Source: Aquimarina brevivitae (GTDB lineage Bacteria > Bacteroidota > Bacteroidia > Flavobacteriales > Flavobacteriaceae). From it: a DNA stretch of 64,000 nucleotides. Under the pieces are notes generated by a model, which saw only the letters and a program-made list of their open reading frames with translations, had not been told where the DNA came from and searched no databases. The DNA lies in assembly GCF_004216895.1 (NCBI RefSeq), contig NZ_SGXE01000001.1, positions 992,001 to 1,056,000 of the forward strand, in the 5' to 3' direction. Shown piece by piece: positions 60,254 through 64,000 of the stretch (position 1 is its first letter; the number at the start of each line of letters is the position of its first letter). The position numbers and the translations under genes were made by a program.

Positions 60254-62452
60254 CTATTGTTTTTTAGTTTCTGCAATGTTTTCTTGTACCTTGATATCAG
60301 TACCTAATCTTTGGATATATGCGATCAACGCTATGACTTCTCGATCTTTCATTTCGATAAACTCGAGTCCATTGGCCTCGGCATATTTTTTATCTTCTTC
60401 ATAATTTTTCGCAAAATCTGGATCGCTATACAGGTTCTTTTCAATTTGCGAAGCCTGCTCGTCCATCCACTCTTCAGCTCTGGCAATTTGCTCTGGGGTG
60501 TAAGGTACTCCTAGTGTTACCATAGCTTCCATTTTTTGTTGTATTTGCGATCTATCGTGCTTATCGGTGATTAACCATTTATAACTTGGCATAATCGATC
60601 CCGATGAGGTACTCTGTGGATCATAAAAATGATTGAGGTGCCAGTTATCGGAGTATTTTCCTCCAACTCTATGCAGGTCTGGACCAGTTCGTTTGCTTCC
60701 CCATAGAAAAGGGTGGTCGTATACGTATTCCCCTGCCTTGGAATACTCTCCATAGCGCTCCACCTCACTTCTAAATGGACGGATTAATTGAGAGTGACAC
60801 GACACGCAACTTTCTCTGATATAAAGGTCTCTACCTTCTAATTCGAGTGGAGTATAAGGCTTTACACTACTTATAGTAGGTATATTAGAGTCCACCATTA
60901 TGGTAGGAATGATTTGAACGATACCTCCTATTAATATTGCTATAGTAGCAAATATGGTTAGCTTTACAGGTCTTCTTTCCAACCAGGTGTGGTACCCTTC
61001 TTTTGCTGTTCTATGCTTAGTTACTTTTGTTAGTGGCGCAGCTTCAGCAAGTTCGTCGGTTACTTTTTGACCTGATTTTGCTGTTTTTACGATGTTGTAA
61101 AGCATTATAAAAATTCCAAGAATATAAATACTTCCACCAATAGCACGCATCCAATACATCGGTATAATTTCGTTGACTGTTTCTAAGAAATTACCATATA
61201 CTAAGCTACCATCAGGATTAAACTGTTTCCACATAGAAGCTTGTACAAAACCAGCTACGTACATCGGTAAGGCGTAGATAATAATCCCTAATGTTCCTAA
61301 CCAAAAGTGGGTGTTGGCAAGTCCTGTAGACCATAATTTAGTTTTAAATAACCTCGGCATCAACCAGTATACCATACCAAAAGTTAAGAAACCATTCCAA
61401 GCCAATGCTCCAACGTGAACGTGTGCTATTACCCAGTCACTAAAATGAGCTATCGCATTTACATTTTTTAAGGAAAGCATAGGTCCTTCAAAAGTTGCCA
61501 TTCCATATCCAGTGATCGCAACCACCATAAATTTTAAAACAGGGTCTGTACGAACTTTATCCCAGGCCCCTCTAAGGGTTAAAAGACCGTTGATCATACC
61601 TCCCCACGATGGAGCGATAAGCATTATTGAAAAGGCAACCCCTAAATTTTGAGCCCAATCGGGTAAAGCGGAATATAAAAGGTGATGAGGACCTGCCCAG
61701 ATATAGATAAATATTAAGGACCAAAAGTGTACGATGGACAATCTATAGGAATAGATGGGTCGATTAGACGCTTTTGGAATAAAGTAATACATCAACCCTA
61801 AGAAGGGTGTGGTTAAAAAGAAAGCTACAGCGTTATGACCATACCACCATTGCACCAATGCATCTTGAACACCTGCATAGACAGAGTAACTTTTAAATGC
61901 ACTAATAGGTAGCTCTAAACTATTAAAAATGTGTAGTACAGCAACGGTCACTACCGTAGCGAGATAAAACCATATAGCTACATAAAGGTGACGTTGTCTC
62001 CTTCTTAAAATAGTTCCTATGAGGTTCCACCCAAAAACCACCCAAATAACAGCGATAGCAATATCAAATGGCCATTCTAATTCTGCATATTCCTTAGAGG
62101 TCGTAATTCCTAGAGGTAAGGTAATAGCAGCACCAACAATAATAAGTTGCCATCCCCAAAAGTTGATATTACTTAGGGTGTCATTAAACATTCGGGCCTT
62201 GAGTAATCGCTGGGTAGAGTAATACACGCCAGCAAAAAGCGCATTACCTACGAAAGCAAAAATTACTGCATTAGTATGTAATGGTCTTAATCTACCGAAA
62301 CTCAACCATGAGATTCCATCGGTTAGATTTGGAAAAATAAACAAAAAGGCTAATAATAAGCCCACAGACATACCTACAATTCCCCATAGCATAGTGGCAT
62401 ATAGGAACTTTTTTACGATTTTATTATCGTAATGAAACTGCTCGATTTCCAT
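60254..62452 (-). CDS. ccoNO: fused cbb3 oxidase subunits I and II (CcoN-CcoO)
   Basis: This is a 732-residue fusion of the catalytic haem-copper subunit and the cytochrome c subunit. The CcoN part (1 to about 480) has twelve helices. Visible CcoN motifs are LRPLHTNAVIFAFVGN, WYGHNAVAFFLTTPFLGLMYYFIPK and HFSDWVIAHVHVGALAWNGF, with the haem and copper histidines. The CcoO part (about 510-732) carries ESCVSCHSQLIRPFRSEVERYG, the c-type haem motif, and a methionine in IMPSYKW. The CcoNO fusion is known from Bacteroidetes. Confidence 0.96.
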   Translation of the reverse strand: MEIEQFHYDNKIVKKFLYATMLWGIVGMSVGLLLAFLFIFPNLTDGISWLSFGRLRPLHTNAVIFAFVGNALFAGVYYSTQRLLKARMFNDTLSNINFWGWQLIIVGAAITLPLGITTSKEYAELEWPFDIAIAVIWVVFGWNLIGTILRRRQRHLYVAIWFYLATVVTVAVLHIFNSLELPISAFKSYSVYAGVQDALVQWWYGHNAVAFFLTTPFLGLMYYFIPKASNRPIYSYRLSIVHFWSLIFIYIWAGPHHLLYSALPDWAQNLGVAFSIMLIAPSWGGMINGLLTLRGAWDKVRTDPVLKFMVVAITGYGMATFEGPMLSLKNVNAIAHFSDWVIAHVHVGALAWNGFLTFGMVYWLMPRLFKTKLWSTGLANTHFWLGTLGIIIYALPMYVAGFVQASMWKQFNPDGSLVYGNFLETVNEIIPMYWMRAIGGSIYILGIFIMLYNIVKTAKSGQKVTDELAEAAPLTKVTKHRTAKEGYHTWLERRPVKLTIFATIAILIGGIVQIIPTIMVDSNIPTISSVKPYTPLELEGRDLYIRESCVSCHSQLIRPFRSEVERYGEYSKAGEYVYDHPFLWGSKRTGPDLHRVGGKYSDNWHLNHFYDPQSTSSGSIMPSYKWLITDKHDRSQIQQKMEAMVTLGVPYTPEQIARAEEWMDEQASQIEKNLYSDPDFAKNYEEDKKYAEANGLEFIEMKDREVIALIAYIQRLGTDIKVQENIAETKKQ

Positions 62453-62454
62453 AT

Positions 62455-62649
62455 TTACAATTGATTGTTTTGAGAATTATTTCTTGACTTTCCAGAGGAG
62501 TGTTCCGTCAGTTCGTCTTCAAATAACATTCGGATTGAAGGGGTATAGGTATCATCATACTGGCCTTTTTTTACAGATACTAAAAAGGCTGCAAAGAAAA
62601 TGATGGCAACTACGACACTAACAGATAGCAAAACATAAATCACACTCAT
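62455..62649 (-). CDS. ccoS: cbb3 oxidase maturation protein CcoS
   Basis: This is a 64-residue single-span protein required for cofactor insertion into the oxidase. The helix (about 3-24: VIYVLLSVSVVVAIIFFAAFL) followed by VKKGQYDDTYTPSIRMLFEDEL is the CcoS signature. It opens the ccoS-NO-Q-P-G-H-TauE unit, directly behind an FNR-type promoter. In many genomes ccoI is immediately upstream; here the peptide array intervenes. Confidence 0.93.
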   Translation of the reverse strand: MSVIYVLLSVSVVVAIIFFAAFLVSVKKGQYDDTYTPSIRMLFEDELTEHSSGKSRNNSQNNQL

Positions 62650-62667
62650 AGGTTTGGTTATTTAGGC

Positions 62668-62710
62668 CAAAAGTAAAAGTGAAAGCTTTCTTAAAAAATG
62701 ACAATTGTCA
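62668..62710 (-). promoter_or_regulatory. FNR-type palindrome plus TAnnTTTG promoter of the cbb3 operon
   Basis: On the minus strand, TACTTTTG at 62668-62675 is the -7 element and TGACAATTGTCA at 62699-62710 is the FNR/CRP-type palindrome. The centre-to-G distance is 36.5 bases, placing the activator near -42. It predicts oxygen-responsive expression of ccoS-NO-Q-P-G-H. Confidence 0.75.
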
Positions 62711-62764
62711 GGTTTTTCAACCGTGTAGTGTAACAGACGCTAAAGCCCGATTTTAAAGGCTTTA

Positions 62765-62802
62765 TTTTACTGTAAAACAGTTTGTTATGTTTTGCAGTAA
62801 AA
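62765..62802. repeat. 15-bp inverted repeat upstream of the peptide array
   Basis: TTTTACTGTAAAACA (62765-62779) and TGTTTTGCAGTAAAA (62788-62802) pair with a single mismatch around an 8-base loop. It lies between the cbb3 promoter and the first peptide gene and may be an operator or RNA hairpin. A weaker AAAGCC/GGCTTT hairpin sits at 62741-62764. Confidence 0.55.
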
Positions 62803-62913
62803 TTAAAAATAGTTAATTTTTGTTAAAATAGTACCTTTTTATACATAGTACTGTAACAAATTTGATTTAACGCCGTCTTATAAGTAAATAACAGTCAATT
62901 AAAACAAATAGAT

Positions 62914-63000
62914 ATGCGAACCTTAGACAACAACCAAATCAGTAAAAGAACACAAAATAGTATAGGGTATACTTGGAATCAAAAAAGAAGATACCACTAA
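62914..63000 (+). CDS. 28-residue peptide 1 of tandem array (type A)
   Basis: Codes for 28 residues beginning MRTLDNNQIS and ending GYTWNQKRRYH. There is no signal peptide or membrane helix, and the C-terminus is basic and aromatic. It shares M1 R2 T3 L4, G18 Y19, W21 N22 and R25 R26 with peptides 2-5. The leader is A-rich (AAAACAAATAGAT) without a Shine-Dalgarno, as normal for the phylum. It is the first gene of the plus-strand array. I do not recognise the family. Confidence 0.75.
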   Translation: MRTLDNNQISKRTQNSIGYTWNQKRRYH

Positions 63001-63040
63001 TACATCAAAAACAAATCATCAATCAAAAAAACAAGCAGTC

Positions 63041-63127
63041 ATGAGAACTTTAGACAACAATCAAATCACAAAAAGACAGAACACCACCATTGGATACATT
63101 TGGAACTCCAAAAGGAGATATCACTAA
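63041..63127 (+). CDS. 28-residue peptide 2 of tandem array (type B)
   Basis: Codes for 28 residues starting MRTLDNNQITKRQ and ending GYIWNSKRRYH. It shares the array consensus with peptide 1. Nine of the codon differences from peptide 1 are synonymous, including those in the MRTL and GY-W-RRY blocks, which argues for selection on the peptide. It lies 40 bases after peptide 1. Its closest relative is peptide 4. Function unknown. Confidence 0.75.
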   Translation: MRTLDNNQITKRQNTTIGYIWNSKRRYH

Positions 63128-63172
63128 TCATTAATCAAATTCATCAATCAATCAATCAAAAAACGAACAGAT

Positions 63173-63259
63173 ATGAGAACTTTAGAAAATATTCAACTTA
63201 GTAAAAGAGTGCAAAATAGCATCGGGTATACTTGGAATCAAAAAAGACGTTACCGCTAA
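63173..63259 (+). CDS. 28-residue peptide 3 of tandem array (type A)
   Basis: Codes for 28 residues starting MRTLENIQLSKRVQ and ending GYTWNQKRRYR. It is the type A partner of peptide 1: residues 14-27 are the same, with a different last residue (R for H). The preceding spacer contains a 26-base stretch, ending CGAACAGAT, that recurs before peptide 5. This supports duplication of a two-gene unit. Function unknown. Confidence 0.75.
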   Translation: MRTLENIQLSKRVQNSIGYTWNQKRRYR

Positions 63260-63296
63260 TAAACATAATAATTCATCAATCAAAAAACAAACCATC

Positions 63297-63383
63297 ATGA
63301 GAACTTTAGACGACAATCAGATCACAAAAAGACAGAACAATACCATTGGATACATTTGGAATTCCAAGAGGAGATTTCACTAA
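63297..63383 (+). CDS. 28-residue peptide 4 of tandem array (type B)
   Basis: Codes for 28 residues starting MRTLDDNQITKRQ and ending GYIWNSKRRFH. It differs from peptide 2 at three residues (N6D, T15N, Y27F) and has three further synonymous codon changes. It is 37 bases after peptide 3. The tyrosine-to-phenylalanine exchange at position 27 keeps the aromatic character. Function unknown. Confidence 0.75.
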   Translation: MRTLDDNQITKRQNNTIGYIWNSKRRFH

Positions 63384-63427
63384 TCATCAATCATCATCAA
63401 AATCAATCAATCAAAAAACGAACAGAT

Positions 63428-63514
63428 ATGAGAACTTTAAATAGCAACGAAATTACTACAAAATTAAAAGAGACTAACGGTTACATCTGGAACTCCAGAA
63501 GAAGATACCGATAA
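63428..63514 (+). CDS. 28-residue peptide 5 of tandem array (divergent)
   Basis: Codes for 28 residues starting MRTLNSNEITTKLK and ending GYIWNSRRRYR. The middle differs most from the other copies, while the first four and last eleven residues keep the consensus at the same positions and the total length is unchanged. This pattern points to the two ends as the functional parts. It is preceded by the same leader (CGAACAGAT) as peptide 3. Function unknown. Confidence 0.75.
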   Translation: MRTLNSNEITTKLKETNGYIWNSRRRYR

Positions 63515-63547
63515 ACACCACCAATAAACCCTTTAAAACAATGTGTT

Positions 63548-63682
63548 ATGAGAACGTTTCAAAATGTAAGAAAAAGGCTGAAAAGCTTTGCACAACGACA
63601 ACATATGTTTTCGGATTTATCAGTTAATTCATACAACAACGAAAACAAACAAATTTTAGAATTTCATAGATATTCATTTTAA
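63548..63682 (+). CDS. 44-residue peptide 6, divergent end of the array
   Basis: Codes for 44 residues starting MRTFQNVRKRLKSF and ending EFHRYSF. Only the MRT(L/F) start, the basic character and the position link it to peptides 1-5; the GY-W-N motif is absent. It lies 33 bases after peptide 5 and a terminator hairpin follows within 5 bases. An out-of-frame 28-codon frame begins at 63541 but shows no family resemblance. Whether it belongs to the same system is uncertain. Confidence 0.5.
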   Translation: MRTFQNVRKRLKSFAQRQHMFSDLSVNSYNNENKQILEFHRYSF

Positions 63683-63686
63683 ATAT

Positions 63687-63712
63687 AAAACCATCTTACC
63701 CAAGGGTGGTTT
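63687..63712 (+). terminator. probable terminator of the peptide array
   Basis: AAACCA and TGGTTT arms enclose a short loop and are followed on the plus strand by seven T. The hairpin overlaps the last codons of the converging ccoI gene. The stem is short, so confidence is moderate. Confidence 0.55.
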
Positions 63713-64000
63713 TTTTGGCATTTAATATTTTGTTTGCCTTCCAATTGGTAAGTGCCGTTACATATAAGACGATTGATATCGAACTTAGGGGCATTAATAT
63801 TGCCGCTATAACAGGTTGCAACTGACCAGTGATCGCAAAATACAAGCCTATTAAATTATACACAAAGGACAAGAAAACACTGGATTTAATGATACTCAAG
63901 GCGGCTTTAGCCAAGCGTAAAAAGTTGGGAATTGAATTAATTTCACTAGCTTTTAAAATCGCATCACAAGCAGGAGAGAAGGCGTTAGTATCTTCCGAGA
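63696..64000 (-). CDS. ccoI: C-terminal end of cbb3-associated copper P-type ATPase (partial)
   Basis: The reading frame continues beyond the right edge; about 100 C-terminal residues are visible. SEDTNAFSPACDAILKASEI is the region before the last membrane pair, and SFVYNLIGLYFAITGQLQPVIAAILMPLSSISIVLYV is the highly conserved end of CcoI/FixI-type copper transporters. The protein delivers copper for the oxidase. Its 3' end faces the 3' end of the peptide array. Placement next to ccoS supports ccoI over other P1B ATPases. Confidence 0.85.
   Translation of the reverse strand, partial: SEDTNAFSPACDAILKASEINSIPNFLRLAKAALSIIKSSVFLSFVYNLIGLYFAITGQLQPVIAAILMPLSSISIVLYVTALTNWKANKILNAKKTTLG

Follow-up and report, generated by a model that had tools for sequence, protein, structure and literature searches.

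The window analysed here, a 64,000-nucleotide stretch of the Aquimarina brevivitae genome, carries a tandem array of very small genes on its plus strand at positions 62914-63682. The array may well be a dosage-amplified stress operon of cationic micro-proteins, whose predicted target is RNA or the ribosome. The regulatory part of this explanation, in which an ECF sigma factor and an RprY-like response regulator would control the array, is highly probable from shared upstream motifs. The RNA or the ribosome as the target of the peptides is a more tentative proposal, drawn from their chemistry and predicted stress regulation. The list of open reading frames and their translations places the genes as follows, together with a predicted terminator.

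62914-63000, plus strand: 28-residue peptide, copy 1 (28 codons plus stop, ATG start)
63041-63127, plus strand: 28-residue peptide, copy 2 (28 codons plus stop, ATG start)
63173-63259, plus strand: 28-residue peptide, copy 3 (28 codons plus stop, ATG start)
63297-63383, plus strand: 28-residue peptide, copy 4 (28 codons plus stop, ATG start)
63428-63514, plus strand: 28-residue peptide, copy 5 (the most divergent copy)
63548-63682, plus strand: 44-residue cationic companion peptide with an MRTF start (conserved frame after the last 28-mer; dN<dS)
63687-63713, plus strand: predicted intrinsic terminator (hairpin of 11 pairs leading into a run of T)

The first-pass annotation had described five frames of identical length, each with its own ATG, stop and leader, and a sixth frame of 44 codons that shares their start; the coordinates and translations bear this out. 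The array consists of separate frames and is not one broken gene. The five copies share M1, R2, T3, L4, G18, Y19, W21, N22, R25 and R26, with Y or F at position 27, and are separated by gaps of 40, 45, 37 and 44 nt. Tandem Repeats Finder gives a 124-nt period a score of 488 and a 256-nt period a better score of 789. As the longer period scores higher, and as copies 2 and 4 (92% identical) and copies 1 and 3 (82% identical) are the closest, the array appears to have grown partly as a two-copy unit. A candidate second array in the same genome was rejected; it is a 22-bit match with an internal stop and does not contain the WNx[KR]RR motif. Other ATGAGAACT starts begin unrelated frames at the loci examined (L005-L008).

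Homologous peptides are present in related genomes. Searched with a profile built from the five peptides, 94 of 299 sampled genomes of the same bacterial family give a match at E<=1e-5, with the own genome counted in; this is a hand count at that threshold, and the tally of 228 at E<=1 includes many chance matches. The search of named genomes confirmed 234 stretches, of which 80 were kept; the genera represented include Aquimarina, Winogradskyella, Bizionia, Aequorivita and Ulvibacter. With a 66-row profile, and scoring limited to the best candidates per genome, matches at E<=0.001 occur in 4 of 395 genomes in a phylum-wide draw and in 6 of 296 in an order-wide draw, all of them in the same family. 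At least one large genus (g128) has no match among the matches listed. The loci first yielded 290 best frames in 119 loci; leaving out L001-L014, which are repeats of the window's own array or loci without a copy, gives 245 matching frames in 110 loci. Some of these loci are the same array from two records, and the distinct sets after collapse are 96 upstream regions and 97 arrays. Exactly 87 nt (28 codons) without N are found in 230 of the 245 frames, which comprise 203 distinct sequences and 170 peptides. A few family members differ in length (24, 26, 29, 31 or 33 residues); otherwise the frames in related loci are intact, their length is nearly fixed, and they are not broken by indels.

The codons indicate that the 28-mer is under purifying selection at the protein level. 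dN is lower than dS in 88 of 88 disjoint pairs, with a summed ratio of 0.113; this comparison excludes pairs whose divergence fell outside the chosen range and pairs in which dS was zero or undefined. Third codon positions are the most variable, and R25 and R26 are written with several Arg codons across the family. W21, N22, R25 and R26 are invariant in the 203 distinct 28-codon sequences, and M1 joins them as invariant in the 66 diverse rows. The residues first proposed as shared therefore hold in part: M1, W21, N22, R25 and R26 are family-wide, but G18 and Y19 are not. The proposal that both ends are conserved stands; positions 11-20 vary in sequence while the length is almost unchanged. Because the loci were found by patterns on MRTL and the GY-x-WN region, the search somewhat favours invariance at single positions; it does not affect the codon test. 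An apparent stop-codon bias (no TGA in 245 frames) was not used, since TGA is rare in long frames of the same loci too (6%) and the copies are not independent. A phage origin was also rejected, as only one of 55 IMG/VR pattern matches was confirmed, at 43% identity to the 28-mer and without the WNx[KR]RR motif. This stretch of a viral contig (L137) is a chance match or a remote relative.

The 44-mer is, by the same kind of comparison, evidently a second conserved peptide. Of the 97 distinct loci, 81 have a frame of 35-56 codons after the last 28-mer, and 68 of the 81 frames encode 43-45 residues; the first ATG frame in this range was taken, and a few may be chance. The other 16 loci have no companion frame, and two of these have incomplete or masked sequence. 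All 18 disjoint pairs compared have a dN lower than dS. Net charge averages +6.0 over the 62 distinct 43-45-mers, with values from +2 to +10, and these peptides frequently end in R-Y/F-A-Y/H. Three database relatives of the 44-mer were found besides the window's own. In seven loci (L036, L105, L111, L119-L122), a 22-23-residue acidic frame replaces it downstream of the 28-mer; this frame is conserved and follows the pattern M-K/R-x-L-S/A-K/R-I-V..DDDL..I.

Pfam, NCBIfam, PHROGs, PDB and Rfam contain no significant match for the peptides or regions searched. The best Rfam score on 62400-64000, 23 bits where the gathering score is 55, is taken as chance. The initial view of the peptides as an unrecognised family thus holds for the libraries searched, with one weak, partial PADLOC match: the 44-mer matches part of the 434-position DndG model (E 0.005, 14 bits), which is taken as chance. 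Two profiles run against PDB ribosomal chains gave no sequence match (best E 0.6 and 2.2), and profile and PDB searches found no structural or sequence link to RNA-binding or ribosomal proteins. AlphaFold predicts one low-confidence helix each for the 44-mer and for a natural family member of 33 residues (pTM 0.34 and 0.33); because of this low confidence, no fold search was made. No report of this peptide family was found in the open-access literature. Among the kinds of peptide considered, none has all of its tested features in the array; only two predicted regulon memberships agree. Stress-induced small proteins are already known as a broad notion.

Upstream of the first frame, the array has a compact control region.

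62812-62826 (62812-62816 and 62822-62826), plus strand: GTTAA-N5-GTTAA direct repeat, predicted RprY-like response regulator site
62832-62839, plus strand: TACCTTTT, predicted P1 box (-7-like), 5 nt downstream of the second GTTAA
62832-62850, plus strand: imperfect 19-bp dyad, possible operator (consensus of 60 non-redundant upstream regions)
62852-62878, plus strand: TGTAAC-N16-CGTCT, predicted ECF sigma promoter (P2), a conserved upstream pattern

TGTAAC-N16-[CG]GTCT is found 50-100 nt before the first ATG in 77 of the 96 distinct array upstream regions, and the spacer is 16 in all 77 though 14-18 was allowed. The relaxed form TGTAAC-N16-NGTC is present in 86 of the 96 and absent in 10. The own genome has eight TGTAAC-N16-[CG]GTCT sites, against one for the reversed pattern; they precede the array, an ECF sigma gene, an ABC ATPase, a DUF4870 gene, an M61 peptidase and others. 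The ECF sigma gene is followed by a small gene and then a DUF4252 gene. Its product reaches 225 bits with NF058625, the NCBIfam GFO_1088/PG0214 equivalog, whose cut-off is 130. The ECF gene was sought in 29 hand-picked genomes, 18 with a strong array match and 11 without any match, and was found in 27. TGTAAC-N16-[CG]GTC precedes it in 23 of the 27 (and in 0 of 5400 shuffles): 17 of the 18 genomes with an array and 6 of the 9 without. Most compared ECF genes have G as the next base (CGTCG) and the arrays have T (CGTCT), so the shared core is TGTAAC-N16-CGTC. Genomes chosen because they gave no array match contain the ECF factor and RprX-like kinases as well, so the array can be no more than an optional target. 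The promoter of the array resembles the sigma gene's own promoter, and the array very likely belongs to the regulon of the GFO_1088/PG0214-family ECF factor as an optional member.

A comparable regulon has been described in Flavobacterium psychrophilum. In PMC9723704, SM6 is an ECF motif whose -10 box reads CGT; it is strongly induced at low nutrients, and among its listed members are an ABC ATPase and an ECF/anti-sigma pair. The CGT box and these two kinds of member recur at the own-genome sites, and we infer that the SM6 factor is the same ECF factor. There are also differences: the passages considered name no peptide array among the members, and the SM6 sRNA, Rfp11, is described as strongly structured, whereas the array RNA is not (z 0.45).

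The second element of the control region is shared with a two-component system. GTTAA-N5/6-GTTAA lies within 250 nt in 88 of the 96 distinct array upstream regions, against 12 of 411 ordinary ORFs; it is absent in eight of the 96. The same repeat precedes 28 of 30 RprX-like kinase operons, where about 0.1 is expected from shuffles; the 30 are the loci fetched from 40 kinase matches in the picked genomes. Both RprX-like operon copies of the own genome, which are outside the 30, carry it as well. A candidate site is thus common to the array and to the regulator's own operon. In four loci (L058, L098, L099, L117), a single 28-mer lies directly before a histidine kinase and an OmpR-type regulator. 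The best match of the L058 regulator and of its two closest own-genome relatives is RprY, below the NCBIfam cut-off. RprY binds its own promoter, according to PMC3646045; a motif description was not found in PMC6032018. A TA is found 5 nt after the second GTTAA in 80 of the 96 upstream regions; typing of these 80 gives TAnnTTGY in 33 and TAnnTTTT in 30. The former is the SM5 box of F. psychrophilum as given in PMC9723704. The window's TACCTTTT has the form TAnnTTTT, a weak fit. RprX-like operons have a further GTTAA, with TAnnTTTG beginning 5 nt after it in 18 matches across 20 loci. We read this as two predicted promoters, P1 run by the RprY-like regulator and P2 by the ECF factor.

Between P1 and P2 lies the 19-bp dyad, with the family consensus TACTwTGTnnnACAwAGTA; it is less perfect in the window. 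The alignment behind this consensus took 88 of the 96 upstream regions, or 60 after near-copies were removed. No regulator was found for the dyad. It was considered as a PadR operator and rejected, as it was not found at the own genome's PadR-like operon. The dyad block together with TGTAAC has one exact copy in the own genome and one at three mismatches. At the other end of the array, the predicted terminator hairpin folds at -10.7 kcal/mol (z -1.8; 13 of 200 shuffles are as good), and a generic terminator scan did not find it. The array appears to be a stand-alone unit, with its own control region and this predicted terminator.

Under stress, the ECF sigma factor and the RprY-like response regulator would act at P2 and the GTTAA sites and switch on the five 28-mer genes and the 44-mer gene. 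Copy number would serve dosage and the leader ATCAATCAA would aid translation; the prediction is that the cationic peptides build up in stressed cells, where they bind RNA or the ribosome. Arrays contain one to five copies, with a nucleotide identity of 86% within arrays (179 pairs) versus 71% between arrays (3003 pairs); this fits dosage selection and also plain recent duplication. The net charge of the 170 peptides is +4 to +8, about +6. Their mean GRAVY is -1.50 and the most hydrophobic 15-residue stretch reaches 0.28. By composition the peptides look cytoplasmic, without an anchoring or export segment, and a membrane role by insertion, one of the functions first suggested, finds no hydrophobic segment to rest on. 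A nucleic acid or ribosome target is suggested by the net charge, the aromatic-basic C-terminus with its nearly fixed W-N-x-K-R-R-Y/F tail, the absence of a hydrophobic segment and the predicted stress regulation.

bTHX, Sra and RMF are short, basic, aromatic-containing ribosome-associated proteins, some of which are induced by starvation. The array peptides are like them in shortness, basic charge and aromatic residues; they differ in that the two profiles have no sequence match among PDB ribosomal chains, and nothing significant links them to a known ribosomal or hibernation protein. We know of no tandem arrays of bTHX, Sra or RMF.

Several points weigh against the explanation as a whole. 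The arrays and most ECF genes have only the CGTC core in common; the ECF factor and the kinases are found in picked genomes without an array match as well; the closest regulators match RprY below the cut-off and the window's P1 box fits poorly. Eight upstream regions have no GTTAA repeat and ten no TGTAAC-N16-NGTC, the searches gave no structural or sequence link to an RNA-binding or ribosomal protein and the models are of low confidence, and the loci in kinase operons would fit a feedback role too. It is possible, if somewhat doubtful, that the array represents an unnamed effector class: tandem, dosage-tuned micro-proteins which are a joint output of ECF and RprY-like stress regulation and act directly on ribosomes or RNA. 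If true, a large part of one bacterial family uses an effector class that was overlooked as its main gene is shorter than 30 codons. The family occurs in 94 of the 299 sampled genomes with an unusually well conserved control region, and annotation seems to have missed it because its genes are 28 codons long. For the GFO_1088/PG0214 ECF factor and RprXY-like systems, two conserved kinds of Bacteroidetes regulator about which little is understood, the array provides an output that can be tested, as well as predicted binding sites. It also raises the question of what use a stressed cell makes of up to five W-N-x-K-R-R-Y micro-protein genes.

The strongest rival, because of the four kinase-operon loci, is a feedback role: by binding to the RprX-like kinase, to its regulator or to the ECF/anti-sigma pair, the 28-mers would weaken the stress signal or make it last longer. 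One 28-mer lies directly upstream of the kinase-regulator pair in each of these loci, and the GTTAA repeat is common to arrays and such operons. However, the linkage is seen in only 4 of 96 distinct upstream regions, up to five copies exceed the need of a feedback loop, and both regulators occur without the array. We consider this role unlikely.

Those same loci bear on a less probable alternative, in which the peptides are nascent-chain attenuators: each would stall the ribosome at its stop codon and control a hairpin and the downstream genes. A conserved C-terminus at the stop and a length nearly fixed at 28 residues would suit this, as would the kinase-operon class, where a strong hairpin begins 7-15 nt after the stop and lies before the kinase gene (z -3.7 to -6.7 in three loci). 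But conservation extends to the N-terminal half, a series of five attenuators is hard to make sense of, and the window and most loci have no close same-direction gene downstream. In the window no gene to be regulated lies between the array and the predicted terminator; a downstream gene of the attenuation type is seen in 4 of 96 upstream classes, namely the kinase-operon loci. Nor is the whole array RNA structured: its fold has a z of 0.45, 14 of 20 shuffles are at least as stable and there is no significant Rfam match, so a structured regulatory RNA was rejected. The hairpins at L058:4087-4165, L098:4087-4165 and L099:4087-4170 have 15-17 pairs and a long loop with CAUCAAUCAAAA, followed by the kinase gene.

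The gaps between the frames contain an element of their own. The leaders had been described as A-rich, which they are; they are not merely so, as a defined element recurs in them.

63018-63028, plus strand: leader element ATCAATCAAAA before copy 2 (found again at 63151, 63275 and 63406, ahead of copies 3, 4 and 5)

ATCAATCAA is found in 74 of 122 gaps between 28-mers versus 2 of 467 leaders of long ORFs; since the control leaders are less A-rich than the array gaps, part of this contrast is composition. It is also found in 27 of 76 gaps before the 44-mer and in 9 of 97 first-frame leaders. The element may aid translation or bind a protein. It is quite improbable that the transcript is instead an RNA sponge, whose repeated AUCAAUCAA leaders titrate an RNA-binding protein while the peptides are secondary. 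The frequency of ATCAATCAA between 28-mers and the 34 own-genome ATCAATCAAAA sites, against seven for the reversed pattern, speak for a sponge. Selection acts on the amino acids, however, the element is scarce in first leaders and in gaps before the 44-mer, and composition accounts for part of the contrast. Of the 34 sites, 30 were examined: 17 lie inside frames of at least 80 codons and 13 outside, four of the latter being the array's. Among other own-genome genes, a ATCAATCAA leader precedes a PadR-like gene and a gene of the ECF/DUF4252 operon (L245 and L246, on C2). The PadR-like gene adjoins a DUF4870-like gene; these names were assigned partly by eye. At L248 (own genome C1:771500-774000), there are three or four tandem frames of about 68-116 codons which we take to resemble NHLP-type leader peptides; one of them has a ATCAATCAA leader.

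Released antimicrobial or signalling peptides are very unlikely. Leaderless multi-peptide bacteriocins such as aureocin A70 and garvicin KS are tandem, leaderless, cationic peptides of about 30 residues; they are amphipathic or hydrophobic and are accompanied by immunity and transport genes. The array is like them in having several small cationic leaderless peptides in tandem. It differs in that its peptides are strongly hydrophilic (GRAVY -1.50, not that of an amphipathic or hydrophobic membrane-active peptide), nearly constant in sequence across genera and not diversified, and without any recurring neighbour for transport, immunity or modification among the clusters seen. RiPP precursors, another of the options first raised, are unlikely: any one neighbour cluster recurs in at most 31 of 110 loci, no adjoining maturation enzyme was seen among the cluster representatives, and no conserved leader is split from a variable core. 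The multi-copy type I toxins Ldr and Ibs are hydrophobic membrane peptides with antisense antitoxin RNAs. The array shares with them tandem or repeated very small genes that annotation misses, but its peptides have no hydrophobic segment.

The surroundings of the array change between loci. The neighbour survey took in up to four ORFs per side and judged clusters by a representative rather than annotating each member. In the window, the left neighbour is ccoS (FixS), on the opposite strand, and an oxygen link had been raised; it is unsupported because the neighbouring cbb3 oxidase is incidental, with ccoS/ccoNO-type neighbours in 12 of the 110 loci (the window included), and the control region is of the ECF and RprY-like type. 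That the peptides are accessory to the adjoining oxidase and made at low oxygen is the most improbable of the alternatives: the window's array adjoins ccoS, but such neighbours are absent at 98 of the 110 loci, the oxidase genes are on the opposite strand, the array's control region is of another type and the 28-mers have no transmembrane segment. The gene on the opposite strand at the right edge of the window presumably continues in the genome (L157) into a P-type-ATPase-like gene, judged by eye. Upstream of ccoS (minus strand), at window positions 62699-62710, there is a palindrome, TGACAATTGTCA, which we take to be like a Crp/Fnr-type site for the oxidase genes; it is separate from the control region of the array.
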